A program made the position numbers and the translations under genes. The notes below the pieces were generated by a model. It had not been told where the DNA came from. It worked only from the letters and a program-made list of their open reading frames with translations, and did not search any database. Of a DNA stretch of 64,000 nt, positions 10,509-32,448 are shown in pieces (the first letter of the stretch is position 1; each line of letters opens with the position of its first letter). This DNA is from Candidatus Nitronauta litoralis (GTDB lineage: Bacteria > Nitrospinota > Nitrospinia > Nitrospinales > Nitrospinaceae). Location: NCBI GenBank assembly GCA_015698285.1, contig CP048685.1:1984001-2048000 (forward strand), read 5' to 3'.

Positions 10509-10589
10509 CTTTTAGTTTCAGTGGTTTATGGTAACGGGAAATTGTTAGAGTTTTTGGGTTTATTGCCGAATTTGTTGCGGAACTTTTTG

Positions 10590-10622
10590 AAGAATTGTTT
10601 ACGCAACGGACTTTTAGTCCGT
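10590..10622 (+). repeat. tRNA-Leu-like anticodon-arm fragment
   Basis: The segment around acgcaacggacttttagtcc resembles the D-loop end and anticodon arm of the tRNA-Leu gene just upstream (acgcagcggacttaaaatcc), with the stem ACGGA/TCCGT kept and the loop changed to CTTTTAG. There is no acceptor or T arm, so it is not a tRNA gene. It may be a degenerate tandem duplicate, and the hairpin followed by A/T could act as a weak terminator. Confidence 0.45.
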
Positions 10623-10651
10623 AAAAAATATCTATAGGGTTTTAGCCTTAT

Positions 10652-11131
10652 ATGGATAAAGTAAATTTAATGTTAGATACATGCGCGATTAATCATGTTT
10701 TGGATTTTGAAGTTGATCCAAAAATTTTTTCTCGAAAAAGATTTTATTTATGGGTAACACATATTCAAGAAAAGGAAATAAAGAAGACTCAGAATGAGGA
10801 TAGAAGGAAGGCATTGTTAAGCACCTTTAAAAGACTAGAGCTAAATGATATTTCCATTGAATCGGGTATTTGGGGGGCAACTAATTGGGGCCGGTCTAAG
10901 TTCTCCTCAGATCGAGGGGAATTATATAAAAAAATTAAGGAGGACTTGGATAATAAAAAGAAAAAGAGGAACAATAATATGGATGCCTTAATTGGAGAGA
11001 CTGCCTTGAAGAAAAAATTTATTCTTGTTACAGACGATAAAGATTTTCTTGAGGTCTACTTAGAAAATAATGTGGAGGCAATATTCCTAAATACCTTGAT
11101 CAGTAGAATTCACAAAGGGTTCTACGAATAG
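10652..11131 (+). CDS. PIN-like domain protein (putative ribonuclease)
   Basis: 159 residues, AT-rich codon use unlike the flanking genes. The N-terminal MLDTCAINH has the first PIN acidic residue (Asp9), NNMDALIGETAL gives a middle Asp111/Glu116, and ILVTDDKDF gives the Asp128/Asp129/Asp131 group typical of the C-terminal PIN site. PIN domains are Mg-dependent endoribonucleases, often VapC-type toxins. A standard small antitoxin gene is absent: the only partner in the cassette is the DUF4145 gene 60 bp downstream. It lies directly after tRNA-Leu, suggesting horizontal acquisition. A role in defence or stress is inferred only. Confidence 0.65.
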   Translation: MDKVNLMLDTCAINHVLDFEVDPKIFSRKRFYLWVTHIQEKEIKKTQNEDRRKALLSTFKRLELNDISIESGIWGATNWGRSKFSSDRGELYKKIKEDLDNKKKKRNNNMDALIGETALKKKFILVTDDKDFLEVYLENNVEAIFLNTLISRIHKGFYE

Positions 11132-11190
11132 TTTTTCGATGGATGATAATTTCTGTTTTTTCTGATTTTAAAGATAATTAATTTAAGGAA

Positions 11191-11907
11191 ATGAAAATGA
11201 AACCGTTTAATTGGGAATGTCCTTATTGTGGAAAACCGACGACGATTACTAGCCCTCATATTGACCAAAATTTTAGGACTTCACAAATAAGGAACTCCAT
11301 TCTTGGAAGTTATATTGGGATAGGTTACACAATTATTTCTTGCCCAAATAAAGATTGTAAAAGTTTAACAGTTAATGCAGCTATAAATAAAATAATTTGG
11401 GTAAACGGTAATCCCCTTAAAGGAGATATCATTAAGTCTTTTTCATTGCTTCCAGAATCTCATGCAAGGCCTCAGCCTGAATACATTCCAGAAGTTATTA
11501 CTGAAGATTATTACGAAGCCTGCCGAATTTGCAATTTAAGCCCAAAGGCTTCCGCTACGTTGTCTAGAAGATGTTTGCAGGGCATGATTCGGGATTTTTG
11601 GGGGATAAAAATGAATAGATTAGTTGATGAAATTAAAGCCCTAAAAGATAAGGTAGATGGGCCAACTTGGGAGGCTATAGATAGCGTTAGAGAAATTGGA
11701 AATATTGGAGCTCATATGGAAAAGGATGTGAACTTAATTATTGAGGTCGAGCCCGACGAGGCCGAAATTTTAATAAATTTAATAGAAACCCTATTTAAAG
11801 AATGGTACGTGGCAAAATATCAAAAAGAACAAAACTTTAGTTCGGTAGTGCAGCTTGCAAAAGAGAAGAAGGAGAAAAAAAATCAGGGAGGAAAGTTTGA
11901 TTTTTAA
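11191..11907 (+). CDS. DUF4145 domain protein with zinc ribbon
   Basis: 238 residues, low G+C. The N-terminal region has two Cys pairs, CPYCG (residues 10-14) and CPNKDC, forming a likely zinc ribbon. The C-terminal DUF4145 domain is visible from YYEACRICNLSPKASATLSRRCLQGMIRDFW to SVREIGNIGAHMEKD, including the conserved Leu-Arg-Arg-x-Leu and Gly-Asn-x-Gly-Ala-His signatures. The Lys-rich C-terminus is probably disordered. DUF4145 domains are found in restriction enzymes and in standalone proteins of defence islands; their biochemical activity is not settled. It shares the cassette with the PIN-like gene. Confidence 0.75.
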   Translation: MKMKPFNWECPYCGKPTTITSPHIDQNFRTSQIRNSILGSYIGIGYTIISCPNKDCKSLTVNAAINKIIWVNGNPLKGDIIKSFSLLPESHARPQPEYIPEVITEDYYEACRICNLSPKASATLSRRCLQGMIRDFWGIKMNRLVDEIKALKDKVDGPTWEAIDSVREIGNIGAHMEKDVNLIIEVEPDEAEILINLIETLFKEWYVAKYQKEQNFSSVVQLAKEKKEKKNQGGKFDF

Positions 11908-11956
11908 TGAGTTTGTTTGTTGCAGATGTTGCGCAACAAGTGAGTTATCGGCAACA

Positions 11957-12030
11957 TGTACAAGTATCGTAATCGCCTAACAGTGGCCCTTGTTGGGTAT
12001 TGGATTTAGGCGGCTATTTTAGCCGTCTTT
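11957..12030 (+). repeat. 74-bp repeat, copy A, containing a terminator hairpin
   Basis: This matches 22302-22375 at about 66 of 74 positions. Both copies share blocks such as acagtggcc, ttggatttaggcggct and tttagccgtcttt. The 3' part forms a stem GGCGGCT / AGCCGTC followed by T-rich sequence, a rho-independent terminator reading plus. It lies 50 bp after the DUF4145 stop and marks the right end of the AT-rich cassette. In copy B it adjoins an IS481-like remnant. Confidence 0.75.
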
Positions 12031-12105
12031 GTTTCAAAATATTCTACTTAGGCAAAATTCTCCCTTAAGTAGGGGCCATTCCCATCGTTTCGCGGCACAA
12101 AGGAA

Positions 12106-12618
12106 TTATTCAGGTAACCCAACGGCCATCAGGATTCCCTGGATTAGATCGGTGGGGGTGGGAGGGCATCCATGAATTAACACGTCGACAGGAATTACCT
12201 GACTTACCGATCCGACGGTGGCGTAGGTGCGTCCGAACTCGCCTCCACAAACAGCGCAATCTCCGGCGGCAATAACCAGTTTGGGATTGGGTACGGCATC
12301 GTAGGTCATTTTCAGGGCGATTTCCATGTTATGGCTGACCGGCCCGGTGACTAGCAGGAGATCGGCATGCCTGGGGGACGCAACAAAATGAACTCCGAAG
12401 CGCTCAAGATCATAATAGGGGTTGTTCATGGCATGGATTTCCAATTCGCAGGCGTTGCAGGACCCCGCATCTACCTGGCGGATGGCCAATGATCCCTGGA
12501 ATCGTTTTTTGACAACACGGTCCAGTTTGGGCCCCAGCACATCAATGGTCTGTTCAGCCTTGCCGAGGGGTTCGGTGATCTTGCCTACCTTGAATATTTT
12601 TCGCAGAATTCGTTGCAT
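12106..12618 (-). CDS. Ehr/hydrogenase-4-like complex, NuoB/HyfI-type small subunit
   Basis: 170 residues, homologous to HyfI/HycG and complex I NuoB. The cysteines that bind the proximal (N2-type) [4Fe-4S] cluster are present: C54-N-A-C57, C121-A-V-C124 in GDCAVCGG, and C151 in HGCPPTP. It should therefore still carry one cluster and face the large subunit. It is the last gene of the operon, 6 bp after the large-subunit stop. Cluster retention next to a large subunit without [NiFe] ligands implies electron transfer or conformational coupling with an unknown redox partner, not H2 chemistry. Confidence 0.82.
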   Translation of the reverse strand: MQRILRKIFKVGKITEPLGKAEQTIDVLGPKLDRVVKKRFQGSLAIRQVDAGSCNACELEIHAMNNPYYDLERFGVHFVASPRHADLLLVTGPVSHNMEIALKMTYDAVPNPKLVIAAGDCAVCGGEFGRTYATVGSVSQVIPVDVLIHGCPPTPTDLIQGILMAVGLPE

Positions 12619-12624
12619 GGTTTG

Positions 12625-14190
12625 TTAAAGATCGTGCCCGGAGTACGAGCAGTTGAACGATTTATTATTCAGTGGAAAATCCGGTACCGGGACCTCCTGC
12701 ACGGCCAGTTCGAGTCCCAGCCAATTGATCATGGAAGGATCTCGCACATAACAACGCTGGATTTTCCCCCCTGATCCGAAACGAATCCAGGTGGCGATTT
12801 CTCCGCGCCAGGATTCGACTACAGCAAACCCCCAACTCCCTTCCCCGGGTTCCTTAAACGGTTCCTGAAAACTCCCTTCCGGCAGATCGACCAGCAGCTT
12901 TTCGATCAACCGGGCGCTGTCTTGAATTTCCTGGAAACGAATCCAAAGTCGGGCCGAAACATCGCCGCCCCGGCACACTTTGACTTGCGGAGGACATTGG
13001 TCGTAAGGGGAATAAGCCGCGTCGCGGCGGGCATCCAGGTCCTGTTCTGCGCTCCGGCCCACAACTCCCAACAGGCCCAGTGTCTGGGCGTTTTGCGCCG
13101 ATATCCCTCCGGAGCCAATCACACGATCCCGGATCGAAGTTTGTTCTTCATAGATTCCGAACAGCTCCTTCATTTCACCCGCGACAGCCTGTGTTTGATT
13201 CCGCAAGCGAGCCGTCCCATCCCTGTCAAGATCACGGGTCACCCCGCCGGGTACCACGACGTCCATGAGCAATCGGTGGCCGAACAATTTCTGATGCAGT
13301 CGGGCCAGGTCTTCGCGTAACCGCTGGCATTGCATCTGCATGAAAGCCCAGGCGGCGTCATTGCAAATGGCCCCGATATCGCCAATATGGTTCGCCATGC
13401 GTTCCCGTTCGCACAACACGGCACGCAGATGGGCCGCGCGCGGGGACACAACGCGCCCCACCGCCTGTTCCGCCGCTAAACAATAAGCCCAGCTGTGGGC
13501 TACCGTGGCATCGCCGGAGATGCGCGCGGCCATCCGGGCGGCGGAAACCGCGTCCTGGTTCTCGAAATGTTTTTCGATTCCCTTGTGCACGTAACCCAGA
13601 CGTTCCTCCAGGTTTAAAATCTGCTCCCCCACCACCTGAAACCGAAAATGCCCCGGCTCAATGATTCCCGCATGCACTGGTCCCACGGGAATTTCATAAC
13701 TTCCTTCACCATCCGTTTCGATGAAGGGGTAGCTTCCCTCCTGACGTTCCAGAGGCACATTCAGAGCAAAACCTTTACGCAAAGGAAATGCATTTTCCGG
13801 CCAGCTGTCATGCTTGATCCAGCGGCGAAGGTCGGGGTGTCCCAAAGGCGTGAGACCGTAGAAATCATGGATGATCCGTTCCATGCGGGCCGCGACGCTG
13901 TAATGAGGAACCAGGCTGGAAAACTCTTCAACGCCCTGCCTCAACTGGGTGGCAACCAGCGCGTAACCCAGTGCCCCCAATGCATAGGCCGCGTGAATGG
14001 TAAACACTCCTTTTTCTTCAGAAGCCCATTCCGCCACCAGGCGCAAACCCTCCTGTTGGCTGATTTTTGCCACAGGGGCCCATGCTGTCTCAGACACAAA
14101 CAAACAGGGTGGGAATTTCCCTCTCGTCTCAAAAGGTATAGCCGCCTGTTTGAGCTGGGATGCCAGAGATTGAGTCAATGCAAAATTCAT
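12625..14190 (-). CDS. Ehr-type large subunit (NuoC-NuoD fusion), lacking [NiFe] ligands
   Basis: 521 residues from ATG 14190, which overlaps the previous stop as ATGA; the longer upstream frame is not used. Residues about 60-170 are NuoC/30-kDa-like (HPDLRRWIKHDSWPENAFPL), and the rest is NuoD/HycE-like (YVHKGIEKHFENQD, MDVVVPGGVTRD). Where hydrogenases have RxCGxC the sequence reads ARISGDATVAHS, with Ser225 and Ala228 in place of both cysteines. The C-terminal DPCxxC is also missing: the chain ends FNCSYSGHDL with a single Cys514. It cannot bind a [NiFe] site. This is the defining feature of energy-converting-hydrogenase-related (Ehr) complexes. Confidence 0.82.
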   Translation of the reverse strand: MNFALTQSLASQLKQAAIPFETRGKFPPCLFVSETAWAPVAKISQQEGLRLVAEWASEEKGVFTIHAAYALGALGYALVATQLRQGVEEFSSLVPHYSVAARMERIIHDFYGLTPLGHPDLRRWIKHDSWPENAFPLRKGFALNVPLERQEGSYPFIETDGEGSYEIPVGPVHAGIIEPGHFRFQVVGEQILNLEERLGYVHKGIEKHFENQDAVSAARMAARISGDATVAHSWAYCLAAEQAVGRVVSPRAAHLRAVLCERERMANHIGDIGAICNDAAWAFMQMQCQRLREDLARLHQKLFGHRLLMDVVVPGGVTRDLDRDGTARLRNQTQAVAGEMKELFGIYEEQTSIRDRVIGSGGISAQNAQTLGLLGVVGRSAEQDLDARRDAAYSPYDQCPPQVKVCRGGDVSARLWIRFQEIQDSARLIEKLLVDLPEGSFQEPFKEPGEGSWGFAVVESWRGEIATWIRFGSGGKIQRCYVRDPSMINWLGLELAVQEVPVPDFPLNNKSFNCSYSGHDL

Positions 14191-15650
14191 AGAGTCCCCT
14201 GATGCAGAAAATTGGCCGCGATTTGAAACCAGTTCGCTAAAAATCCAGGGATCGCCAATCCCAGAATCAGGGCAAGCCCGAGATGGATGTAGACCGGAAG
14301 CATGTTGATCGGGACCGCATGGACCTCCCTGGGGTACATTCCAAACACCATGGGTTGCAGGTGGCGGAACAGTCCGGCAAAGGCCACGACCAGGCTGGGC
14401 AACAGGATTCCGATGGTCCAGGGGTGGGTTTCGAGGGCCGCTGTGACCAAAAGGAATTCGCTGGTGAAAACCCCGAAGGGGGGTAACCCCGCAATGGCGA
14501 TGGTCCCGAGGAGCAAACCCACACCGATTTTCGGCTGGAGATGCATCAGACCACGGATTTGCGCTATCGTTTGCGTTTTCATCGCCTGGGCGGCATGTCC
14601 CACGGTGAAAAAGATTCCCGATTTGACCAGGGAGTGCACAGTCATGTGCAACAGAGCTGCGTAATTGGCTAAAGGCGTACCGATGCCGAAGGAAAAAGTC
14701 ATCAGGCCCATGTGTTCGATGGAGGAAAAGGAATACAGACGCTTGATATCCTTTTGCCGGTGGAGAGACAAAGCCGCTACGGCCAAAGTCAGCAAGCCAA
14801 ACCCCATCATCAAATGACCGGCCAAATGATTGTGCGTGGCGCCGTCCACCAGTGTCTTGCACCGGACCAGCGCATACAACGCCACGTTGAGCAACAACCC
14901 CGAAAGCACTGCGGAGATAGGAGTGGGTCCTTCCCCATGTGCATCCGGCAACCAGTCATGCATTGGGAACAGCCCGACCTTGGTACCGTAACCCACCATG
15001 AGAAATGCGAAAGCAATGGTCATGACACTCGGGTTGAGCTGGTCGGCCTTTGGGTACAGCAGGGTCCATGTCAGGGCTTCATTGCTGTGGCCAAATACTT
15101 CTAAAGATGTCGAGAAAATCAGGATAGTACCGAACAGTGCCAGGGCGATTCCCATACCGCATAAAATAAAATATTTCCATGCCGCGCTGATGGCCGCCGG
15201 TGTCCGGTACAACGATACCAGGAGAACCGTGGCCAGAGTTGCCAGTTCGAGCGCGATCCAAAGCACCCCCAGATTGTTGGTCGTTAATGCCAGCAACATG
15301 CCGAAAACAAACAACTGGAACATGGCGTGGTAAAGACGCAGGTTGCGGGAGGTTACGCGGCCAATCTTCTCTTCATGAGCCATATATGCCGCGGAAAAAA
15401 TAGCCGTATTGGTCGCCACAAAAGTGGTCAGCGCTACCAGAAAGATATTGTAGGGGTCGAGGAAAAACGCCTGACCGTTGAAAAACAGGGAGCCCTGCAT
15501 CAAAACCTTCCATACCAGACCCAAAGAGACGACAAAGGTCGCCGCACTTGCGACGATATTCAGGCGGGCGGCTTGGCGTGATTTGCCCACAAATGCCAGG
15601 GCGAAACCAGTTAAAGCTGGGATTCCCAGTAAAAGGGGAAAAAGGTTCAT
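14187..15650 (-). CDS. HyfF-like proton-channel subunit (NuoN/M/L family)
   Basis: 487 residues, about 13-14 transmembrane helices. It carries the antiporter-family signature: VLWIALELATLATVLLVSLY (conserved Glu), GTKVGLFPMHDWLPDAHGEGP (conserved Lys and His loop) and the LYSFSSIEHMGLMTFSFGIG helix. HyfF homologues translocate protons in group-4 hydrogenase complexes. Its start overlaps the hyfE-like stop by one base (TAATG) and its stop overlaps the next start (ATGA), so synthesis is tightly coupled. The key Lys and Glu of the channel are kept, suggesting that ion pumping persists although the hydrogenase centre is lost. Confidence 0.82.
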   Translation of the reverse strand: MNLFPLLLGIPALTGFALAFVGKSRQAARLNIVASAATFVVSLGLVWKVLMQGSLFFNGQAFFLDPYNIFLVALTTFVATNTAIFSAAYMAHEEKIGRVTSRNLRLYHAMFQLFVFGMLLALTTNNLGVLWIALELATLATVLLVSLYRTPAAISAAWKYFILCGMGIALALFGTILIFSTSLEVFGHSNEALTWTLLYPKADQLNPSVMTIAFAFLMVGYGTKVGLFPMHDWLPDAHGEGPTPISAVLSGLLLNVALYALVRCKTLVDGATHNHLAGHLMMGFGLLTLAVAALSLHRQKDIKRLYSFSSIEHMGLMTFSFGIGTPLANYAALLHMTVHSLVKSGIFFTVGHAAQAMKTQTIAQIRGLMHLQPKIGVGLLLGTIAIAGLPPFGVFTSEFLLVTAALETHPWTIGILLPSLVVAFAGLFRHLQPMVFGMYPREVHAVPINMLPVYIHLGLALILGLAIPGFLANWFQIAANFLHQGTL

Positions 15651-16306
15651 TATTTCCTTTCCAGATGACGGAGGTCCAGTGAATCGAAAGTCTTCCTGAT
15701 ATGAAAGAAAAACAGGCCAAAGATCAGTCCGGCAATCAGCACGTCGAACGCAATGCCGATTTCCACCACCAGTGGCATTCCGTGCGTGGCAGCGGTGGCG
15801 GTAAAAAACAAGGCATTCTCCATGGCCAGGTAACCCACCACCTGGGTTACGGCCTTGCGACGGGTGATCATGATGAGCATGCCGATCAGGACGCAGGCCA
15901 GCCCGATGGCGATGATGTTACGCGTCATCAGGACGGAGGTTTTCTGAATGGGGAGACTAATGTAATAGGCAAACAGAACCAGAAGCGCGGCAATCAACAA
16001 GGTCGGGAAGATATTGATCAGCGTTTCCACCTCCCGGTTGGCACCCAGGCGGACGACGACCCGCCATAACAACCAGGGCATCAGGAATCCCTTCAACAGG
16101 AGGGCCAGGAGTGCCGAAATATAAAGCTCCGGACTAGCGGCGGCGAAGGCCACAAGAGCGGAGGTGGCCGCCAAAAGAACTCCCTGAATCGCAAACCATC
16201 CTAAAAGCGCTCGCATATGCCGTTGCGCAAGGATCGCAAACGCGGTCAGCAAAAACAGGGCCGCCGCCAGTGAGGTCAGTTGTTTCAGCAGTTCTTGGGA
16301 AATCAC
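15650..16306 (-). CDS. HyfE-like membrane subunit (NuoK-like)
   Basis: 218 residues, start GTG at 16306 overlapping the hyfC-like stop as GTGA. Seven hydrophobic segments fit a HyfE subunit, with NuoK-like character in the C-terminal part (AVTQVVGYLAMENALFF, GMPLVVEIGIAFDVLIAGLI). Glu residues in these helices correspond to the proton path of NuoK. It sits between the HyfC- and HyfF-like subunits as in hydrogenase-4 operons. Confidence 0.78.
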   Translation of the reverse strand: MISQELLKQLTSLAAALFLLTAFAILAQRHMRALLGWFAIQGVLLAATSALVAFAAASPELYISALLALLLKGFLMPWLLWRVVVRLGANREVETLINIFPTLLIAALLVLFAYYISLPIQKTSVLMTRNIIAIGLACVLIGMLIMITRRKAVTQVVGYLAMENALFFTATAATHGMPLVVEIGIAFDVLIAGLIFGLFFFHIRKTFDSLDLRHLERK

Positions 16307-17250
16307 GCCGACCCCTCCAGGATGTAATGGGTCAGCATTCCAAGGATGGCTATGAGGAACGCCGTTCCCAGGTATTCAGGTAGGCGAAAGATACGCATCT
16401 TTGCCATCCAGGTTTCCATGAGGGCGAGTATGCCTTGCAGGAACAATATCTTGAGGGCCAGAAGTCCCCCGGAAAACAGCAGGGCCGGGACCGTGTTCTC
16501 CTCTGCGATTCCCCAGGGACAGAACAGGTTGAGGAGAAGAGTCATAAATAACAGCAACTTCATGTGGTTTGCCCATTCGATCAGACCCAGATAACGTCCC
16601 GAGTACTCCAGGATCATCGCTTCGTGGACCATCGTGAGTTCCAGATGGGTGGACGGGTTGTCTACCGGAATCCGGCCGGTTTCTGCAACGGCCACCAGAA
16701 GCAGGGCCACCAGGGCGAATGCCAACGAAGGACGCAGGCCGAAATGTCCGTTAAGCATATGGTCGATCATGGTGGACAGGTTGGTGCTTTCTGCCGCCAT
16801 GGACACCACAAAAACACTCATCAGCATGGCGGGTTCCGCCAGCGCGGCAAATGTCATTTCCCGGCTGGCTCCCATGCCACCGAAAGCCGTTCCGGTATCC
16901 ATGGCACCCAGGGCCGTGAAAAACCGGGCGAGTGCGAACAGGCCCACCAGGGTAATGACGTCGGCGGCGGCGGACAATGGGGTTTGCACCAGGAGGACAG
17001 GTACTATCGCGCAGGCAAGGGCAGTGGAGGCAAAAATAATATAAGGGGCCAACCGGAATATCCAGGAAGCGCCTTCCGGAAGGATAGGTTCCTTGCCAAA
17101 CAGCTTACGGAGGTCGCGGTACGACTGAAACAAACCGGGGCCACTCCGGTTCTGCAACCGCGCCTTCATCTTTTTCAGGACAGCGGCGCCTAAGGGGGCC
17201 AATGCAATCAATAACAACGCCTGGACGGTATTCAGCAACCAGAGAGTCAT
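16303..17250 (-). CDS. HyfC-like membrane subunit (NuoH family)
   Basis: 315 residues from ATG 17250, overlapping the hyfB-like stop as ATGA; an in-frame extension to 17349 would overlap hyfB widely and is rejected. About eight transmembrane helices. Family-specific segments are RLQNRSGPGLFQSYRDLRKL, GMGASREMTFAALAEPAML and PVDNPSTHLELTMVHEAMI, which include the acidic residues of the quinone/proton entry region in NuoH. It anchors the soluble subunits to the membrane arm. Confidence 0.84.
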   Translation of the reverse strand: MTLWLLNTVQALLLIALAPLGAAVLKKMKARLQNRSGPGLFQSYRDLRKLFGKEPILPEGASWIFRLAPYIIFASTALACAIVPVLLVQTPLSAAADVITLVGLFALARFFTALGAMDTGTAFGGMGASREMTFAALAEPAMLMSVFVVSMAAESTNLSTMIDHMLNGHFGLRPSLAFALVALLLVAVAETGRIPVDNPSTHLELTMVHEAMILEYSGRYLGLIEWANHMKLLLFMTLLLNLFCPWGIAEENTVPALLFSGGLLALKILFLQGILALMETWMAKMRIFRLPEYLGTAFLIAILGMLTHYILEGSA

Positions 17251-19265
17251 ATCAAAAATCCCAGAAGGATCAACAATGTCAAAAACACTAGTGAAAGGTG
17301 ACCGTGAATTTGGCGCTGGTGGAGCCAGTCGGTCCCTCGCGTCAGCCACTCCACGATTTTTCTAGCGGGTGTATAAATATATTTCCAAGCCAAGTCCTGG
17401 ATGTGCACGGAAAACCGAATACGCCTGACCAGAAGCGGATTGCCATGGTTCAACCGGGACACCTCCTCATGCGGTTGATAGACTTTGGAAAAAATCTGGC
17501 GCATGGGCTGGGAAAAACTGGTCGCCGTGTATTGCATGCGCGGATTCAGATCGGGATGGCCGCAACTCCAGATCGGCGCACGGCGCACGGGTTTTCCGCG
17601 GTAGTACAACAAAAACGCAACAAGTCCCGCCAGCAAAGAAGCCAGTAAAACGATCAGAGGAGAATAAGAAGCGCGCTCCGGTGACAGGGGGGTCAACCAC
17701 AACCAATGGCTTCCGGTCGTAGCTCTTTCCAGGCTCGAAGACAACAGGGTGGGCGACACCTGGTCGATCAGTGGAATCACCCAAACCGGGCCGATTCCAA
17801 GAATCAGGCACAACACAGCAGGCAGGGCCATCCCTGAAATCATCCAGCCGTCCACTTCACATGCCTCAGCCGCGGAGCGGGTCCTGGGCGTTCCCTGGAA
17901 AATAATGCCGAATACCTTGATAAAGCAGGTTGCGGTCAACGCTCCGGCCAGTGCGAGCATGGCGGCGGAGAAAGGAATCAACGCGGCAAGCGGCGAACTC
18001 TCCAGTTTTGGGGCCATCAGGGCGGCCTGAAAAGTCAGCCACTCAGATACAAATCCATTGAACGGAGGAAGCGCGGATATTGAAATACAGCCGATCAAGA
18101 ACAGCACAGCCGTAATCGGCATGCGGCGGATCAGACCCCCGAGGCGATCCAGGTTGCGTTGATGGGTGGAGTGGAGAAGGGCGCCTGCCCCCATGAATAA
18201 CAGTCCTTTGAAGAGAGCGTGGTTGAGTGTATGGTACAGTGCCGCCACCAGGCCCAGCGCCGCGAGACCCGGGTGGTCAAAGTGTGTGAAGATCATGGCC
18301 AGCCCGAGACCGATGACGATGATGCCGATGTTTTCCACCGAATGGTACGCCAGCAGGCGTTTCAGGTTGTGCTGTTGCAAGGCCAGCAACACCCCGCCCA
18401 CGGCAGAACTGGACCCCGCCGCCAGCACAAGACCTCCCCACCAACCCTGCGCCTGGTCCAGACCCACCAGATCCCAGATCACCCGCAGGAACCCGAACAC
18501 CGCCACTTTGATCATCACACCGCTCATCAGGGCCGATGCATTGGAAGGAGCAACGGGGTGGGCTTCCGGCAGCCAGATATGCAGAGGAATTATTCCGGCC
18601 TTCAAACCAAATCCCAGTCCTGCGGTCAAAAATACCAGCGACAACCATGTGGGCGACAAGGTTACAGTTCGCATCACCTCAAATTCAAACGATTTCCCCG
18701 CCATATAAAGGATGGAAAAACTGCTGAGGATCAGGAGTGCCCCCAGGTGCGCCATTAACAAATATAAAAAACCCGCCTTTCGGTTCGCTTCCCTTTCGTG
18801 ATCGAAAACGACAAAAAAATAGGAAGCAACACTCATCAGCTCCCAGAAAATCATGAACGTGTAAGCATCATCCGCGAGCACCACCCCCTGCATGCCGACA
18901 ATGAACAGGGACATGGAGATGTCCAGAAGGGTCAGATTCTGAGTTTTTGCACGGGAGCGCAGGTAGCCCACCGAGTAAATGCCCACCGAGGTCACCAGCA
19001 GGCCGATGATCACCATGAAAAAGCCGGCCAGCGGATCCAACCGCAGGTGCATGGGCAACCAGGGCAGGCCCAGCGGCAAGAGGAGCTGTTGTGGAGGAGA
19101 CAGTAATCCCATCACTCCTGCGGCAGTGGTGAATACTCCCGATATCGCGATCAACAGATGGGTGACCCGATTACGAATTTCTTTTGCTTTGCTAAGCGCC
19201 AGGCTGGCTATACAGACAAACAGCGCCATAGCGGGTCCCAACAACAATGTTACTGAGGGGCTCAT
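17247..19265 (-). CDS. HyfB-like proton-channel subunit (NuoL/M family)
   Basis: 672 residues from ATG 19265, which has AAAGGA at good spacing; a TTG 12 bp upstream is less likely. It has about 16 transmembrane helices, with FWELMSVASYFFVVF (conserved Glu), LKAGIIPLHIWLPEAHPVAP (conserved Lys) and LLAYHSVENIGIIVIGLGL. The C-terminal half includes a segment with an Arg-Arg-Ala-Pro-Ile-Trp-Ser-Cys-Gly motif (KPVRRAPIWSCG) typical of HyfB/HycC. It is the first structural gene of the complex, 83 bp downstream of the HTH-EIIA gene. Confidence 0.85.
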   Translation of the reverse strand: MSPSVTLLLGPAMALFVCIASLALSKAKEIRNRVTHLLIAISGVFTTAAGVMGLLSPPQQLLLPLGLPWLPMHLRLDPLAGFFMVIIGLLVTSVGIYSVGYLRSRAKTQNLTLLDISMSLFIVGMQGVVLADDAYTFMIFWELMSVASYFFVVFDHEREANRKAGFLYLLMAHLGALLILSSFSILYMAGKSFEFEVMRTVTLSPTWLSLVFLTAGLGFGLKAGIIPLHIWLPEAHPVAPSNASALMSGVMIKVAVFGFLRVIWDLVGLDQAQGWWGGLVLAAGSSSAVGGVLLALQQHNLKRLLAYHSVENIGIIVIGLGLAMIFTHFDHPGLAALGLVAALYHTLNHALFKGLLFMGAGALLHSTHQRNLDRLGGLIRRMPITAVLFLIGCISISALPPFNGFVSEWLTFQAALMAPKLESSPLAALIPFSAAMLALAGALTATCFIKVFGIIFQGTPRTRSAAEACEVDGWMISGMALPAVLCLILGIGPVWVIPLIDQVSPTLLSSSLERATTGSHWLWLTPLSPERASYSPLIVLLASLLAGLVAFLLYYRGKPVRRAPIWSCGHPDLNPRMQYTATSFSQPMRQIFSKVYQPHEEVSRLNHGNPLLVRRIRFSVHIQDLAWKYIYTPARKIVEWLTRGTDWLHQRQIHGHLSLVFLTLLILLGFLI

Positions 19266-19348
19266 GATTCCTTTCAATTAAATATTGGGCAGTAATAATC
19301 GGTTCAATCGAGTCAACGAATTAACTCTTCTGTTACCTATTGATACAT

Positions 19349-20035
19349 TCAATCCGCCTTCTTCTTCATCGCCTTTTCCGCACGACAGAGCTCCGCAAAA
19401 ATCGTTTCGCGGCTTCCTTGCTCACGGATCACCTTACGGAAAGAGGGGTCCCTCAAAACGTGGGCCAGGCGGGAGATCAGGTGGATGTGACCGCGCACTG
19501 TCTGGCTGAGGATGGTGAACGCCGCAAACACCGGTTTTCCGTCGAGCGCGCCGAAATCGATCGGCTTTTCCAGAAACGACAACGTCAGGCTCGCGTGCGG
19601 CAGGTTGAAGATGAGCGGACTTCGGGGATGAGGAATCGCGATCCCATCCCCGATGCCAGTCGACCCCAGCATTTCTCGCACGCGGAGGAGTTCGTAAACG
19701 TAATCCTTATCCACTTCCGGAGGCAGGCGCAGATTGCGGACTATGTTGAGCAGCACGCTGTCCCGGTCCTGACCTTCTACCCGGTAGAGGATCCCTCCAG
19801 ATTCCAATACCTGTTCCAGCGAAGACAACGGGCCAGTCTCCTCTTGCGTTTCCAGGAAGATGCCCGGCTTGAGGGACACACGGTTGGCCATCGCCCATTC
19901 CAGAACTTCCGACCGTGCAAATCGATACTGATCGTTGATGCGATAAGCCGGGATCTTTCCTTCATTCACCCAGCGGTATAAGGTCTTTTCGGAAACCCCA
20001 AAGAGTTGTGCAGTGTCACGAATCGTCAGTCTCAT
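19349..20035 (-). CDS. HTH-PTS EIIA fusion regulator
   Basis: 228 residues. Residues 1-50 are an excisionase/MerR-like DNA-binding domain (TIRDTAQLFGVSEKTLYRWVNEGKIPAYRI). Residues about 70-220 form a type-2 (fructose/PtsN) EIIA domain, with the phosphorylatable His136 in GDGIAIPHPRSP and the preceding VLREREMLGSTGIG-type segment (RVREMLGSTGIG). It is a likely sensor of phosphorelay state acting directly on DNA. The gene heads the Ehr operon on the same strand and tandem 10-bp repeats precede it, so autoregulation and control of the complex are plausible. The regulatory target is inferred from position. Confidence 0.82.
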   Translation of the reverse strand: MRLTIRDTAQLFGVSEKTLYRWVNEGKIPAYRINDQYRFARSEVLEWAMANRVSLKPGIFLETQEETGPLSSLEQVLESGGILYRVEGQDRDSVLLNIVRNLRLPPEVDKDYVYELLRVREMLGSTGIGDGIAIPHPRSPLIFNLPHASLTLSFLEKPIDFGALDGKPVFAAFTILSQTVRGHIHLISRLAHVLRDPSFRKVIREQGSRETIFAELCRAEKAMKKKAD

Positions 20036-25847: not shown

Positions 25848-26174
25848 CTAGGAATCAAAATGATCAGGGCGCAGTACGCTTGCATCCAACACAAAGAGGC
25901 TGCCAGAGTGACGTTCCAAAAAGGGTTTGATGCCGGATAAGATAGGTTCCACTTTTTCTTCCGGAACAATGGTCAATATCATTTGAAGGCTGCTCGTGTC
26001 GTTGAACATCATATGGCCTTCGTGGAAACCACCGTGTCCTTTGCCGGAGATATTGTTGAAAATTGTGTAACCACTGGCTTTAATCTGATCAAGAACGTCT
26101 GTCACGAAATGAAGGTGCTCTCCTTCAATAATGATCTTTATTTCTTTCATTGGGTGAAGTGTCAAGCCGTCCAT
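25848..26174 (-). CDS. PII-like signalling protein of the DAB operon
   Basis: 108 residues from ATG 26174 (AGGAG upstream). It follows the PII/GlnB ferredoxin-like fold: KEIKIIIEGEHLHFVTDVLDQIKASGYTIFNNISGKGHGGFHEG (beta-alpha, then a short T-loop region), LQMILTIVPEEKVEPILSGIKPFLE and a C-terminal strand LFVLDASVLRPDHF. The Tyr51 uridylylation site of GlnB is absent. It is the last gene of the dabB/dabA operon, 25 bp after the dabA stop. PII-like proteins are known beside DUF2309/NuoL carbon-uptake genes and likely tune transport by nucleotide binding. Confidence 0.75.
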   Translation of the reverse strand: MDGLTLHPMKEIKIIIEGEHLHFVTDVLDQIKASGYTIFNNISGKGHGGFHEGHMMFNDTSSLQMILTIVPEEKVEPILSGIKPFLERHSGSLFVLDASVLRPDHFDS

Positions 26175-26199
26175 GATTTTTCTATTCTCCTAAACAAGA

Positions 26200-29100
26200 T
26201 TATATCGAATGAATGGGTTCCCATATGTTGGGCGATTTAAAGAGGAAAAACTCCATGACTTCTGGATCTAAAGCCACAATATGGAGCCATTGGTTTCTCG
26301 TCAATTTTTGCAGGAGATTATGCCGAGAAATAATGGTGGTGATCATTTCACGCGGTGCTTCTATTATAACAAATAACCGCATGGGTTCATGGTAAGGTTT
26401 GTCGCCATCAAATACTGTCTGGATAGGGAGTCCGACACAAAGGTCGCTTTGGGTGCCAAACATGACACCAACACGCCCCACCACATTGTGATACGCTTTG
26501 CTTCCCGCTCCAAAAACCTCTGTGTCAACGGTGGAAAAATAGTGTTCCATATTAATCCATTGTCCTACGACCATTGGAGCGGTCATGATGATTTCCAGGT
26601 ATTTTCCATCGGGGTCTCTTTTATAATCATAGGAATGTAAAAATGTCCGGGCTTCCAGATTTAATCCCTGTGTCAACAAACGTCGGCCGGTGATAAATGC
26701 CGTATGTCCGGAAAGCCCCCATTCCGGTCGTACCTGAGACCAGTCTATGCTTCGAGTTTTGGTCCTCTTTAGCGCGCTGAACTTTCCATTTAAATCTGAT
26801 TCGTCTGGCATGCGTGCTAACCGCTCCCTGCTGTTTTTTTCACCAGCTTCGTGGAGGTCGCGCTGAAGCCGGATCAAATCTTTTCGGTGGGTGGCGGGGA
26901 CGTCTTCCAGATCATAGAGCTCAACTTCGTCTGTTGTGGTGTCGTGCTGTCCGGGCAGAAAATGTGTGTCCTCAGGAATCACCAGGTTTTTCAAAGCCAG
27001 CAGGTGCCGGACCTCGGGTTTGTTGGCCATGACGGCCAGGGCGCGTGCGTTGGATACTCCATGGTTACCACCGCATGCGCCGCAATCGAGGGCAGATTCG
27101 TAAGGATTGTTGTCTGAAGTGCTGCCATGGGCACAAAGCAGGATGAGACGGGAAAATGTTTTGAATCCTAATACCCTTAAAGCCGTCTCCACATAATGAG
27201 CCTGCTCTGCAACGGTAAAGCCTGCCTGGGTTATCCGTTGCATTTGGCGGTCCACGTCTCGCTCATTTACATCAAATTCTTTTCTGAGTACCTCAATAAA
27301 ACGTACCAGATCGGGTTCGCCCCACTGCAACAACTGGTTCAGCTCTTTATTGTCAAGACTGTCGATTGGAATTTCATTCATCGCCAGTTTCCGCAAACGT
27401 TCCACTTGCTCGTGGGAAACAGTGGCGCCGAGCGAACCATATTGCTCGATCAAAAGTTTGTAAATGGATGCCCGGTGTTTAGAGGCAACCATTTCGTGGG
27501 CCTCATCCCGTTCAATTTTTTCTACAGTCAGCGTTGTGCCTATGGGAATAGCCAAACGCTCTTTTAACCATGAGACTGCACTTTTGAACCAGTTCGGGCG
27601 CAACGTTTGTCCGAAAAGCCTGAATCCAAAAAACCAGCCAATTGCTTCCACCATGACATATGGGGTGATGACGTTTTCTTTTAAGTCATGCAGCAATGTG
27701 TGGCCAGCCTTGGCGAGTTGTTGTCCTTCCAGAAAATCCTGCGCAGCCTTGGCTTGATAGGCGCGGGGAATTTCTTTTACAACGTGCTTGGGTTTCAGAA
27801 GAACCGGGCATTGGTCTGTCTGGTGTTCGCTCGAAAACTCTTGATAGCAGATGGGAACCCCAAAAAAACCGGCGAATCCAAATGTCTCATTTCCGCCAAC
27901 TTCTTCAAGATGTCTTCTGAAGCCTTCTGATCTGACATCGATGCAAAATATGGATTGGGAAAGAGGACGCGATTCTGTTGGCTTTTCTTCCGAAGCATCA
28001 ATCTTTTTGAGTTTTTCAATATTAGGAGTGAATTTTTTCACAAAATCTGTGATGAAGCTGGATTCCAAAGCTTTGAGCCAGACCGGTCCATGTTTTGATT
28101 CGGGAAACTCTTCAACCCAATCCAGCAAAGTAACTAATGGCACGGGGCCACTCTTCAAAATATCCTTTAAGGGTATGTTAATCGATTTTGCAAGATGCAA
28201 AACTATCAAGGCCCGAACGTCAATTTCCTGCTGTTCCCGAATTTGTTCCCACTTTAGAATCAATTCGGGATTGCATTGATCCAGCTTTTCTATTCGCAGG
28301 GGTTCCTGGATGAACAGGGACATATCCAGATTGTTTTCAATGACCTCTGGCAAACCTCGGGTTTGATAATCTTTAAAAAGACCATACCCGACTGAGAATT
28401 TATTCAGGTAAGCTCGTATCGAAGTATAGCTCCCGGGAATGGCTAACCTGGAGCGACAGGCCAGATCCACAAGTTCTCTTTCATAAAAAATACGAACGGC
28501 CATGTATTTGACAAGGTCAATTGGGAACGCGTTTTGCCATTCATAGTCCAACTGTTCAGAGCGCCATTTGATGAGTCCTGTCCACCCGGCCAATTGAGCA
28601 AAATGCAGGGTAAAATAGTTGATCCACAGTCCTTTCGGAATCGATAATCTGGCCATGATTTCGAGGATTGCATCTTCTGGTCGATCAGGTAAATTTTTGA
28701 TTTTGTTTTTCCAATCGGGAATACCCAGGGAAGAACCGAAACCGTCATCCTGGGCTAACTCTTTCCAACTGCCGTAGAAAGATTTTTCCCTCAAGGGCAT
28801 TCCCCAGGGGCCATGCCCCTCATCGAGAAACCCGCTGATCCATTTGATAATTTCACTATTGATTTGGCGTTGTACATCAGTTCCAAATGTCTGGTCGCAC
28901 CATTCACCAAGCGTGTACCGTGTCGCCAGCTCTTCCTGTTCACGGCTTGCATAACCCTGCAAAGATTCCTTGTGCTCGTTGTTTTTCGGAAAACCCCGGA
29001 CTTTCTGGATCAGATCTTTTATTTCTGGTTGGTTATGTGAAGATTGCAAAACCGCCGAAGCCACGTCTGCAGCTATTTTCCCGGTGCCTTTGAGCAATAT

Positions 29101-29454
29101 TGTTTTCAGAAACTCCAGATGAGAAATATTTTTATTGCCCAATTCAATGGTGGCATCTTTTGATACGTCCTTTAAGGCTTCGTTCAGAGCCTCAACAGTT
29201 ATTCGCCCTTGTTTTACAAAGTTTCGGTATTCTTCATTAGGTAGAAATCCGCGCCCCCCAAAAAACCGTTCAGCCTCCTTAATCGCTTTTTCGAAATGGA
29301 AATGTTCCAGACCGTGAAGCGGATTATGATGGATAAACGTTTTCATAGGCCAGAAATGAGAAATCGGTTCACCCGCCAGCATCACGAACGAGCGCAATTC
29401 AATCTGCTGGGCTTCAGTTGGAGTCTTGGTTTCTTTGTCGTCGATGGTAAGCAT
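26200..29454 (-). CDS. dabA: inorganic carbon uptake protein DabA (DUF2309, beta-carbonic-anhydrase-like)
   Basis: 1084 residues, on the long side for the family. The DUF2309 zinc-site residues are all present with family spacing: Cys504 and Asp506 in FCIDVRSE, His776 in LCAHGSTSD and Cys791 in SALDCGACGG. The N-terminus HHNPLHGLEHFHFE is also characteristic. DabA is a cytoplasmic, membrane-associated subunit that converts CO2 to bicarbonate vectorially, driven through its DabB partner. It lies in one operon with dabB, a second NuoM-like gene and a PII-like gene. The assignment is strong; activity depends on the energy-coupling partner. Confidence 0.9.
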   Translation of the reverse strand: MLTIDDKETKTPTEAQQIELRSFVMLAGEPISHFWPMKTFIHHNPLHGLEHFHFEKAIKEAERFFGGRGFLPNEEYRNFVKQGRITVEALNEALKDVSKDATIELGNKNISHLEFLKTILLKGTGKIAADVASAVLQSSHNQPEIKDLIQKVRGFPKNNEHKESLQGYASREQEELATRYTLGEWCDQTFGTDVQRQINSEIIKWISGFLDEGHGPWGMPLREKSFYGSWKELAQDDGFGSSLGIPDWKNKIKNLPDRPEDAILEIMARLSIPKGLWINYFTLHFAQLAGWTGLIKWRSEQLDYEWQNAFPIDLVKYMAVRIFYERELVDLACRSRLAIPGSYTSIRAYLNKFSVGYGLFKDYQTRGLPEVIENNLDMSLFIQEPLRIEKLDQCNPELILKWEQIREQQEIDVRALIVLHLAKSINIPLKDILKSGPVPLVTLLDWVEEFPESKHGPVWLKALESSFITDFVKKFTPNIEKLKKIDASEEKPTESRPLSQSIFCIDVRSEGFRRHLEEVGGNETFGFAGFFGVPICYQEFSSEHQTDQCPVLLKPKHVVKEIPRAYQAKAAQDFLEGQQLAKAGHTLLHDLKENVITPYVMVEAIGWFFGFRLFGQTLRPNWFKSAVSWLKERLAIPIGTTLTVEKIERDEAHEMVASKHRASIYKLLIEQYGSLGATVSHEQVERLRKLAMNEIPIDSLDNKELNQLLQWGEPDLVRFIEVLRKEFDVNERDVDRQMQRITQAGFTVAEQAHYVETALRVLGFKTFSRLILLCAHGSTSDNNPYESALDCGACGGNHGVSNARALAVMANKPEVRHLLALKNLVIPEDTHFLPGQHDTTTDEVELYDLEDVPATHRKDLIRLQRDLHEAGEKNSRERLARMPDESDLNGKFSALKRTKTRSIDWSQVRPEWGLSGHTAFITGRRLLTQGLNLEARTFLHSYDYKRDPDGKYLEIIMTAPMVVGQWINMEHYFSTVDTEVFGAGSKAYHNVVGRVGVMFGTQSDLCVGLPIQTVFDGDKPYHEPMRLFVIIEAPREMITTIISRHNLLQKLTRNQWLHIVALDPEVMEFFLFKSPNIWEPIHSI

Positions 29455-29499
29455 GGCTTTGGCCTGCTGACTTCCTGAAAAAGTTAAACAATTGGTGCG

Positions 29500-30732
29500 C
29501 TAGTAAAGCAGTCCGCTATAGCCAGCGCCTAATAATAAAACGGTTACTGCGACAACTTCCTTTGCCTGCAGATCAGAATAAGGTACATCCGTGCGCGTTG
29601 CTCCAAAAGCGGTTTGGTGGAGCATTTGAATGAAAAACCAGCCACCTCCCAGCCAAACTGCAAGAAACATCAAAAAAACCTTGATGAAACTTCCATCCAA
29701 AACATCGACTGTTGGCATCAGGACCAAACCCGAAAACGTAGGGAACATTGGGAGAAACAGTGAGAAACTCACAAGAATAACCAGAATAATTCCAAACCGG
29801 GGCATTGGAGAAGCGAGCCCGGGAAGTTTTCCAATGATCTGCCATCCATATCGTAGCCGAATAAAGGAAAATGCGAGGCAAATGCCACCCAACGCAAAGG
29901 CGACAGCAATACCAAACGCGATTCCCCACTTGGGAAAGCTCGGAAAAATATTTAGCAATCCCCACACGAGCGATATGTGTGCCACAGTAGCGGCTGCGAC
30001 GAACAGATTGCTTTGTTTTTGTCCAAGAGCGGCTAAGGAAGAATAAAATGCACTTACCAAGGCTAACAAACTTATGACCAGAAGCGTATCAGCTGTAAGC
30101 GAAGAGTAAATCAGGTTCAATTCCGCAAGCCCGATAGCTAACCAAACGACAATCCAAAAGCTTGAGAGAGATCCTTTCGCTCCTTCTATCGTTCCCACAA
30201 ACGGAAGATGGAAAGGAAACAGAGGCAGGAAGGTGACTGCCAGAAACAAGCTGGAATACATCTGCAAGGTGTTGTCGCCCAGGGCGGAACTCAAGGAAAG
30301 AAAGATGGCAACGAAAATATGAATGAGAATGAGGGTCGTTCGAAAGGAGCGATTTTTACCGCGAATAAGAGAAAATGCGGCATAACCCAGGAGGCCGCAT
30401 AGGAAAAGCCTTCCCACAAGTCCCTCGCAAAGCAATGCGCCCAGGGCCAGTCCCATAGTTGTCATGCTTGAAGAGCAGATTCCCGCAGCCTGGTGCGACT
30501 TTCCCTGGCAAAGCATGACGCAAAAACCTGAGAGAAGCACCGCAAAAGCTAAAAATCCATTAGGGGGATCTGTTTCTACAGCAAAGGCAAGAAACAAGGC
30601 CAAAATTACAATCGTCATCAAACCCAGAGTTTTAAGGCTGGAAAACGAAATGTTCACAATCTTCCTGACAATTCCCACAATAAGCGGAAAAAGAGCAAAA
30701 ATTATTGGAAGAGAATGTTGAGTATTCATCAT
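29500..30732 (-). CDS. degenerate NuoM-like membrane protein of the DAB operon
   Basis: 410 residues, about 12 transmembrane helices, hardly any charged residues inside the membrane. Faint antiporter-family landmarks remain: FLPLFPFHLPFVGTIEGAKG where NuoM has the K-x-x-x-FPxHxWLPDA loop, VAHISLVWGLL for the SxxHMG helix, and a C-terminal FGATRTDVPYSDLQAKEV like the DLxxRE segment. The conserved Lys and Glu of the proton channel are absent. It probably forms an extra membrane element for the dabA/dabB system. Spacing to its neighbours is 46 bp and 16 bp. Confidence 0.65.
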   Translation of the reverse strand: MMNTQHSLPIIFALFPLIVGIVRKIVNISFSSLKTLGLMTIVILALFLAFAVETDPPNGFLAFAVLLSGFCVMLCQGKSHQAAGICSSSMTTMGLALGALLCEGLVGRLFLCGLLGYAAFSLIRGKNRSFRTTLILIHIFVAIFLSLSSALGDNTLQMYSSLFLAVTFLPLFPFHLPFVGTIEGAKGSLSSFWIVVWLAIGLAELNLIYSSLTADTLLVISLLALVSAFYSSLAALGQKQSNLFVAAATVAHISLVWGLLNIFPSFPKWGIAFGIAVAFALGGICLAFSFIRLRYGWQIIGKLPGLASPMPRFGIILVILVSFSLFLPMFPTFSGLVLMPTVDVLDGSFIKVFLMFLAVWLGGGWFFIQMLHQTAFGATRTDVPYSDLQAKEVVAVTVLLLGAGYSGLLY

Positions 30733-30747
30733 TATTTCCAGTCGTGT

Positions 30748-32448
30748 TTAAAAACGATGAGCTACCTTTTGAGCCAGCCGGAGTATGTTTCTACTCCATC
30801 GCACATAAGCCAGGTCTACATAGAACCGATTGATTAGCAGAATGTACATTTGTTTTCGTAACGAAACGAGCCAATCTGCAATAAATATTTTTTGTCCCTT
30901 GGCATTGGTATAGAGAACAAACCAGCCAACAAGAATGAGCGCAGTGGCGGTGAATATGATCAAGTCAAAGACATGCGGATTAAAAGCCGCTGCCACAAAG
31001 AAACTTTCTGATACCCCCGGTTCAGGGTAAAGGAAATGTGTGAATTCCTCTCCAGCCCACAGGTAAACAAATCCAATGAAAAACAATGCACCGATCATTG
31101 TGCATGCGACTTTCCAGGAATCGACGGCTTGAAGACGATATAAGCTGAACATGACCTGGGAAGCCGTTACCCAACCGAAGAAGAGGAAGATAACCGCACC
31201 GTGTGCATCCTGCAGAGGTATTTCCAGCATGTCGTGGGCGATCATAAGAATCACAAGCGGCATCAACAACGTGACCACTAACCCCGTTACCCAGGTTAAA
31301 TGGGTGGAAGATTTGTTTTCCTCAATTATATGTTCTGAAGAATGGGGAAGCTTTGGTTCTTCCCGTGAAGCATGGATGCCGGTTCCTGCTCCCAGAAACA
31401 AGGTCGCTTTAAAAAGACCGTGGGCAATTAAATGAAAAATTGCCAGGGCAAATGCCCCCAGTCCACATTCCATAATCATGTAACCCATTTGCCCCATCGT
31501 GGAAAACCCAAGAGTTTTCTTGATGTCGTTTTGAGCCAGCATCATGGAGGCTCCCAGCAGAACCGTCAAAACTCCTATCAAAAATACAATATGAAGCGTT
31601 GTCGACGAGAGAGCATAAAACGGAGCCAACCGGTTCAATAGAAATCCGCCGGCATTGATAATTCCTGCATGCATAAGAGCCGAAACGGGGGTGGGCGAAT
31701 CCATGGTGTCGGGCAACCACACGTGTAAAGGGAATTGTGAAGATTTGGCCATTGCGCCAACAAATATGAGGAGTCCAATCAGAGCAATGACATCGATTTC
31801 AAACAAGTTCCCCGGTAATAAAGAAACCGTGTATGGATTTTCTGCCGCTGCTGCAAAGAGTTCATTAAATTCCAGGGTTCCAAAATATTTATAGGCAAGA
31901 AACAATCCACAGAGAAAGCTCACGTCTCCCACGCGATGGACAAAAAACGTTTTAAACGCATTGCGGCAAGCGTCGGGATGGGAAAAATTAAAATTAAGAA
32001 TAAGGTATAGAGCGAGACTCAATAACTGCCAGAACATGAACAGCATGAACAGGTTCGGACTGGAAACGAGTGAGAGGATGACAAAGGTCATGAAGCTCAA
32101 TAGCCCAAAAAACCGGACGTAACCATTATCTCCTTCCAGATACCGGACCGAATAGACATGAATGACGACACTGACGCTCGTGATCAGCATCATCATGGTG
32201 GCCGTGAGACGATCGACCAGCATGCCAATCTTCAAAATAGCAGAACCCTCAGAACTCAATGTCCAGAAAACAAACCGGACTGTTCCCTCGTTGCTTACAT
32301 AATAGAGAGTCCAGGCAGAAATCAGGCAGGATATAGAAGTGGCAATAATCCCGACCTTGGCCACATGGTTGGGCATGCGGTTGCCATAGACCCAGATTAA
32401 AAGCCCGGCTAGAAGAGGAAAGAGAGGAATAAGAATCGGGAGGGTCAT
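30748..32448 (-). CDS. dabB: DabB, NuoL-like cation-coupled subunit of the DAB carbon pump
   Basis: 566 residues, about 14-15 transmembrane helices of the complex I antiporter family. VGAMAKSSQFPLHVWLPDTMDSPTPVSALMHAG has the conserved Lys and His, and KTLGFSTMGQMGYMIMECG the next motif. At the site where NuoL has FWELVS the sequence is FWQLLS, so the channel Glu is Gln141. It is first in the operon (dabB, NuoM-like, dabA, PII-like). DabB is thought to let cations (H+ or Na+) flow inward to power CO2 hydration by DabA. Confidence 0.85.
   Translation of the reverse strand: MTLPILIPLFPLLAGLLIWVYGNRMPNHVAKVGIIATSISCLISAWTLYYVSNEGTVRFVFWTLSSEGSAILKIGMLVDRLTATMMMLITSVSVVIHVYSVRYLEGDNGYVRFFGLLSFMTFVILSLVSSPNLFMLFMFWQLLSLALYLILNFNFSHPDACRNAFKTFFVHRVGDVSFLCGLFLAYKYFGTLEFNELFAAAAENPYTVSLLPGNLFEIDVIALIGLLIFVGAMAKSSQFPLHVWLPDTMDSPTPVSALMHAGIINAGGFLLNRLAPFYALSSTTLHIVFLIGVLTVLLGASMMLAQNDIKKTLGFSTMGQMGYMIMECGLGAFALAIFHLIAHGLFKATLFLGAGTGIHASREEPKLPHSSEHIIEENKSSTHLTWVTGLVVTLLMPLVILMIAHDMLEIPLQDAHGAVIFLFFGWVTASQVMFSLYRLQAVDSWKVACTMIGALFFIGFVYLWAGEEFTHFLYPEPGVSESFFVAAAFNPHVFDLIIFTATALILVGWFVLYTNAKGQKIFIADWLVSLRKQMYILLINRFYVDLAYVRWSRNILRLAQKVAHRF

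Follow-up and report, generated by a model that had tools for sequence, protein, structure and literature searches.

DAB2, studied through structures and mutants, is described as a CO2 hydratase driven by the proton motive force (PMF), in which DabB and a 'finger' of DabA form the proton path (PMC13144422). The system of Halothiobacillus neapolitanus is named three-subunit DAB1 in the introduction of the same paper, where its third subunit is termed a "small hypothetical transmembrane protein". The available part of PMC4633670 gives the order of that operon as NuoL-like gene, transmembrane protein, DUF2309 protein (1046 aa) and PII, and the available part of PMC5700660 describes a clade of DabA operons with PII at the 3' end, as well as another class with NuoM-type genes. 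Here, a four-gene DAB operon is described from the chromosome of the Nitrospinota bacterium Candidatus Nitronauta litoralis, within a stretch of 64,000 nucleotides (contig CP048685.1, positions 1,984,001 to 2,048,000; hereafter the window). Judged from its sequence, the operon probably encodes a DAB1-like pump that hydrates CO2 at the expense of the PMF, in which the third membrane subunit conducts no ions and a regulator senses bicarbonate and adenylates. The third subunit is a NuoM-like protein of 410 aa, for which the label DabM was coined in this analysis.

In the available part of PMC10839748, Nitrospinota are described as the dominant known nitrite oxidisers of the marine water column, to which 15-43% of the inorganic carbon fixed in the northern Atlantic is attributed; their inorganic carbon uptake therefore matters. 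The same part reports a key enzyme family of the reductive tricarboxylic acid (rTCA) cycle in all classes of the lineage, and a search of it for terms found carbonic anhydrase mentioned and no text on bicarbonate, NuoL or Mrp.

Gene order and the DabB and DabA subunits

The four genes lie on the minus strand in the order dabB, DabM, dabA and PII-like, separated by intergenic gaps of 15, 45 and 25 bp (Table 1). This is the DAB1-type order of dabB, membrane protein and dabA with an adjoining PII gene. The host genome is a complete, single-contig chromosome of 3.92 Mb, in which searches found one beta-carbonic-anhydrase match and no match to the RuBisCO large subunit or to a bacterial microcompartment (BMC) shell protein.

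The proton path was examined through the residues numbered in DabB2 as K235, S256, H260, K310, S316, H339, H343 and K347, the roles of which are taken from a mutational map of DabB2 (PMC13144422). All eight are identical in each of 15 Nitrospinota DabB sequences. The place of NuoL Glu144 is taken by Gln141 in all 15 and by Ile151 in DabB2, and is still Glu in the NuoL-like protein of the Mrp-linked DAB that the window genome also carries.

DabA scores 862.6 bits on PF10070 and matches the DAB2 chain 9rd0_A with an E value of 1.8e-102. Its zinc ligands (Cys504, His776 and Cys791, a Cys2His site) and the Asp506-Arg508 dyad are conserved. Position 603, the finger position, is Glu in all 17 DabM-linked rows, both Nitrobacter rows and all six other rows, and Asp in all 18 Mrp-linked rows; these and later DabA counts refer to full-length rows, fragments at contig edges (e.g., L039, L043, L050, L054 and L055) being excluded. 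In DAB2, substitutions at the counterparts of the zinc ligands, the Asp-Arg pair and the finger Glu impair or abolish function, and both E444A and E444Q abolish activity (PMC13144422). The finger Asp of the Mrp-linked DabA, set against the Glu of the 25 other rows, hints that coupling may differ between them.

Table 1. Features of the DAB operon, in window coordinates
Feature	Position	Strand	Description
dabB	30748..32448	-	566 aa; NuoL-like proton-conducting membrane subunit; PF00361 and PF00662
DabM	29500..30732	-	410 aa; third membrane subunit, similar to NuoM but lacking the channel Lys/Glu
dabA	26200..29454	-	1084 aa; beta-carbonic-anhydrase-like CO2-hydrating subunit; PF10070
DabA Glu603 codon	27646..27648	-	place of DabA2 'finger' Glu444, assigned by motif and position
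DabA residues 646-742	27229..27519	-	insertion of ~97 residues following the finger; modelled as helical
CPII-like PII protein gene	25848..26174	-	108 aa; PF00543

The NuoM-like and PII-like proteins

No Pfam match was obtained for DabM. Its residues 160-402 match the NCBIfam family NDH_I_M (model positions 211-460) with an E value of 5.7e-9, at a score (35.2 bits) below the curated family cut-off of 263.8; the whole genome holds 13 matches to this family, three of them above the cut-off, and DabM is the weakest. The likeness to NuoM was controlled with 500 full and 500 local (12-residue block) shuffles of each protein. With a hidden Markov model (HMM) of the three NuoM proteins of the window genome, scores of 17.0 bits for the window DabM and 9.2 bits for its divergent orthologue in genome G014 were obtained, values that none of the full or local shuffles reached in either case. 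A broader antiporter HMM gave 15.7 bits for the window DabM, above all shuffles. The G014 orthologue failed with this broader HMM when null2 was on (-11.7 bits, with 494 of 500 full and 492 of 500 local shuffles higher) and exceeded its shuffles when null2 was off.

When DabM is aligned with NuoM, the lysines of transmembrane helices (TM) 7 and 8 fall into gaps of DabM, and the TM12 Glu is aligned with Leu336, which is invariant in 17 rows. The TM5 Glu column reads E, Q, Q, Q, T and E in six DabM rows, so there is no conserved TM5 Glu. The original prediction, a DAB operon that includes an additional antiporter-like subunit devoid of the channel Lys and Glu, was borne out. The loss of the NuoM channel residues argues that DabM is not a second ion pump. 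The sequence therefore gives no support to the further proposal that the extra subunit changes ion coupling; an indirect effect may remain.

The fold of DabM was also sought by modelling. The AlphaFold model has 14 long helices, with low confidence (mean predicted local distance difference test score, pLDDT, of 48). Complex I-type chains occupy Foldseek ranks 1, 4 and 7, all at E > 0.001. VIA-align, which re-examines Foldseek's own picks, listed 50 rows, of which 48 are complex I-type or Mrp antiporter-like with Z scores of 6.4-8.1, below the level that the tool treats as clear for helical proteins; the list is consistent with an antiporter fold. Narrow alignments of DabM with MrpD by hhalign gave nothing, and a PDB sequence search with a DabM profile returned no match at E <= 1. 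The model makes a 14-helix antiporter layout plausible.

The PII-like protein contains a single Tyr, which lies in the motif SGYTIF ahead of the T-loop. GlnB Tyr51, which we take to be the uridylylation site, has no Tyr counterpart in it; the absence of that Tyr had been predicted correctly. Its closest PDB structures are 5d4n and 5d4l (E about 5e-32; 4.9e-32 for 5d4n), which we take to be the CPII protein of Thiomonas intermedia K12, and SbtB comes next, far behind, at E values of 0.06-0.09. The ungapped alignment with 5d4n has 54 identities in 106 positions (51%), placing the protein nearer to CPII than to GlnB, and it is 48% identical to the Nitrobacter PII. The ligands of CPII are reportedly ADP/AMP and bicarbonate, and the earlier idea of gating by nucleotide or bicarbonate fits what is said of this family. 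The carboxysome association in the name of CPII is not shared by the window genome, which has no RuBisCO large-subunit or BMC match, and the window protein is therefore named 'CPII-like'. A regulatory analogue is SbtB, which acts on SbtA (available part of PMC8438413). By analogy, we infer that the CPII-like protein would be the natural regulator of the pump, in which case a protein family named for carboxysomes would serve a lineage reported to have a key rTCA-cycle enzyme family.

The DabA insertion follows the finger and precedes the second half of the zinc domain. It is 96-97 residues long in 16 of the 17 DabM-linked rows, and each of the two Nitrobacter copies has 93; the same site holds 22 residues in all 18 Mrp-linked DabA and 0-22 in the six other rows. 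In a DabA model with an overall pLDDT of 54.8 the insertion is helical and, at 64-81 per block over residues 651-730, better than its surroundings. The sole DabM-linked exception is G024, with 13 residues at the site, and the notion that the insertion is strictly tied to DabM was dropped. Docking of the CPII-like protein is a possible function of the insertion, suggested by this one loss. Genome G056 has DabM and the insertion and no PII within ~2 kb, and actinobacterial operons have PII without the insertion. At the G024 locus (L030:1815-4814) the DabM-type DabA lacks the insertion in frame, and no such PII was found in the operon or the genome.

The occurrence of these genes was surveyed across 77 Nitrospinota genomes: DabA was found in 36, DabM in 20 and the PII-like protein in 18, with DabM and the PII-like protein together in 16, and none of the three was found in the 13 genomes outside the order. 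In every one of the 18 loci read, DabM is the immediate neighbour of dabB, dabA or both, with dabB directly upstream in 16 and dabA directly downstream in 16, the remainder ending at contig ends. The possibility raised with the original prediction, that the NuoM-like gene would be absent or unlinked in close relatives, was thus not what the loci showed. As the relatives also carry an Mrp-linked DAB without DabM, DabM is tied to one DAB type and not to DAB function. PII follows dabA in 11 of the 18 DabM loci, to which a contig-end fragment in G040 can be added; in G001 and G033, which have PII without DabM, it adjoins only DabA fragments. Outside Nitrospinota, no DabM was found in the plasmids searched, and a genome scan with two narrow patterns, which does not establish absence elsewhere, gave 19 loci. 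Fifteen of these are titled Nitrospinia, Nitrospinota, Nitrospinaceae or Nitrospina, and L048, L050, L054 and L055 bear the submitter titles Nitrospirales, Cryomorphaceae or Nitrospirota, a placement given as submitted. Identities within the same loci are 50-74% for DabM, compared with 69-87% for DabB and 82-88% for PII.

Two side observations concern other genes. On contig C92 of G051 (L039 / L060), DabB is split into adjacent frames of 180 and 357 aa, through a frameshift or an assembly error. Elsewhere in the window (12106-19277, minus strand) there is a complex I-like membrane cluster of NuoB-like, fused 30/49-kDa-like and NuoH-like genes with two antiporter-like subunits, adjoined at 19349-20035 by a gene for a regulator with helix-turn-helix and phosphotransferase system EIIA-like parts.

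Relatives, proposed mechanism and alternatives

The same gene order was found on plasmid 1 of Nitrobacter hamburgensis X14, with dabB of 565 aa, a membrane protein of 253 aa, dabA of 1037 aa (with the insertion) and PII of 108 aa. Two tandem copies of the operon are present there (L063:3441-9327 and 10360-16246), with identical accessions for the third subunit and for PII. The similarity of the Nitrobacter third subunit to NuoM is confined to the C-terminal part of the latter, whereas the window DabM is full length, and the Nitrobacter operons adjoin a form I RuBisCO gene, unlike the window genome with no RuBisCO match. In the DabA tree the window type and Nitrobacter are joined with support of 99/96 (98/95 with the insertion removed), and in the DabB tree with 95/95; both proteins are separate from the two-gene and Mrp-linked forms. 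Nitrobacter was the DAB1-like reference in these trees, the H. neapolitanus sequences lying outside them. The grouping is good but not final. The 253-aa protein itself scores 9.7 bits on the NuoM HMM and 14.5 bits on the broader one, and in each case none of 1000 shuffles scored higher.

Several observations weigh against the interpretation given at the outset. The Nitrobacter sequences form a long branch, and their position in the trees may be an artefact. Alignment of DabM with the Nitrobacter third subunit by hhalign has a probability of 0.2%; with a DabM HMM and null2 on, 488 of 500 full shuffles of the whole Nitrobacter protein scored higher than the protein itself, and its C-terminal 153 residues alone were outscored by 17 of 500. 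A direct link between the two third subunits was accordingly set aside, which leaves their parallel similarity to NuoM and their shared position in the operon. The DabM model is also poor, with no Foldseek match at E <= 0.001, and PII is missing beside the DabM operons of G024 and G056 despite 1.8-2 kb of downstream sequence.

In the Nitrospinota and Nitrobacter lineages alike, these sequences suggest an antiporter origin for the third subunit. Either a single ancestral NuoM-like subunit was retained at full length in Nitrospinota and shortened in proteobacteria, or there were two separate recruitments; the former is favoured because of the shared gene order and the DabA and DabB trees. The full-length Nitrospinota form suggests a decayed antiporter subunit as the third component of DAB1, which makes its role testable.

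The conserved residues suggest how the DAB1-like pump would work. The membrane potential would drive protons inward through DabB and the finger helix pair of DabA, where they would activate the buried zinc site, and CO2 would be hydrated to bicarbonate that is retained in the cytoplasm. DabM, derived from NuoM and non-conducting, would pack on DabB as NuoM packs on NuoL and would act as a scaffold steadying DabB and DabA. Going by CPII and SbtB, the CPII-like protein would sense bicarbonate and adenylates and throttle the pump once internal bicarbonate is sufficient. The bicarbonate would presumably feed bicarbonate-using carboxylases and not carboxysomes.

Other roles for DabM were considered. 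It might be a stabiliser or assembly factor, required solely while the complex is being built: two-subunit DAB2 is fragile during purification (PMC13144422), and DabM diverges faster than its neighbours DabB and PII. Its one-to-one place in the operon and its many invariant positions suit a structural subunit equally, however, and a role confined to assembly is unlikely. It is a little harder to credit that DabM conducts ions through other residues, so that more ions are spent per CO2. The titratable or charged residues R131, H175, K186, R294, R312 and H372 are invariant in DabM, and H138 and E204 nearly so; but the TM7 Lys, TM8 Lys and TM12 Glu are all gone, and the DabB set is complete.

The loss of the channel charges would also suit a CO2 conduit, in which DabM offers a non-polar path feeding DabA; a role of this kind has been suggested for a non-polar lateral channel in NdhF3 of the cyanobacterial NDH-1MS complex. 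Charged elements of NdhF3 have turned non-polar along that proposed CO2 path (available part of PMC6981117), and the gene order equals ndhF3-ndhD3-cupA-cupS (available part of PMC11456788). DAB2 nevertheless functions without DabM, membranes are readily passed by CO2, and the charges K186, R131, R294 and R312 persist in DabM; with the model at a pLDDT of 48 too poor for a tunnel computation, we consider a conduit quite doubtful. Finally, the whole system could work not as a proton-driven CO2 hydratase but as a Na+/HCO3- symporter, in the manner of MpsAB from staphylococci, a homologue for which the use of sodium has been argued (PMC13144422). This is the remotest of the alternatives, as the DabA zinc site, the finger Glu and the DabB proton residues match those of DAB2, which is independent of sodium (PMC13144422). 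The best explanation is still probably a PMF-driven hydration pump with DabM as a non-conducting partner.

Comparison with known systems

The layout of the operon is already known, having been published for H. neapolitanus (in the available part of PMC4633670), and it occurs twice in N. hamburgensis. What is new is a full-length NuoM-like third subunit, its Nitrobacter parallel of about half the length, and a setting without detected RuBisCO or BMC shell genes. The literature searched held no text on a NuoM-like third DAB subunit or on a Nitrospinota DAB, although the DAB discovery and CPII papers lay outside that search and absence is unproven. Compared by the published text, so far as available, DAB1 of H. 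neapolitanus (hneap_0907/0908/0909 and a PII/SbtB homologue) has the same gene order as the window; its third subunit is described as small and is encoded near a carboxysome locus, whereas DabM has 410 aa and stands in a genome with no RuBisCO or BMC match.

DAB2 (9rd0) shares the DabA zinc site and the DabB proton path with the window system and, unlike it, has no third subunit. Its DabA also leaves no room for the insertion of ~97 residues: residues 562-737 of the window protein (175 residues) correspond to residues 410-484 of the chain (74). Simple systems of only dabA and dabB, which the original prediction took to exist, are present without DabM or PII in Thiodictyon, Salinivibrio and Haloarcula. 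An actinobacterial form, seen at L064:3999-9010 (a Mycolicibacterium plasmid) and L065, consists of dabB, dabA and PII without a third membrane subunit, and at L064 a carbonic anhydrase gene follows.

The window genome itself carries a second, Mrp-linked DAB (L006:10067-19203; C1:2526566-2535702), in which dabA (1002 aa) is followed by Mrp-type E-, C- and D-like and smaller genes. Its NuoL-like gene scores above the NDH_I_L cut-off and the subsequent NuoM above the NDH_I_M cut-off. It shares with the window operon a DabA paralogue and NuoL- and NuoM-like subunits, and differs in having DabA first, an Mrp-type set, Asp at the finger, no CPII and no insertion. The Mrp-linked form was seen again in those Nitrospinota loci with a short DabA that were read, and in G013 it stands directly after the DabM-type operon (L115).

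CPII of T. intermedia, as already described, is similar to the fourth gene product, and the window genome lacks the carboxysome-gene matches that its name would suggest. The working principle of the cyanobacterial NDH-1MS is like that of the window operon. Its CupS is presumably not a PII protein. As far as the available text of PMC11456788 goes, ndhF3-ndhD3-cupA-cupS runs in the same order of NuoL-like, NuoM-like, hydration and small soluble subunits, and, according to the available part of PMC6981117, NDH-1MS is redox-driven and the fold of its CupA is unlike that of carbonic anhydrases. There is a small chance that DAB1-like pumps and NDH-1MS converged on one arrangement, in the same order, of a NuoL-like conductor, a NuoM-like neighbour, a soluble hydration subunit and a small partner, in which the NuoM-like neighbour, deprived of its proton axis and in proteobacteria reduced to about half its length, would be a dedicated path or gate for CO2 and not a pump.

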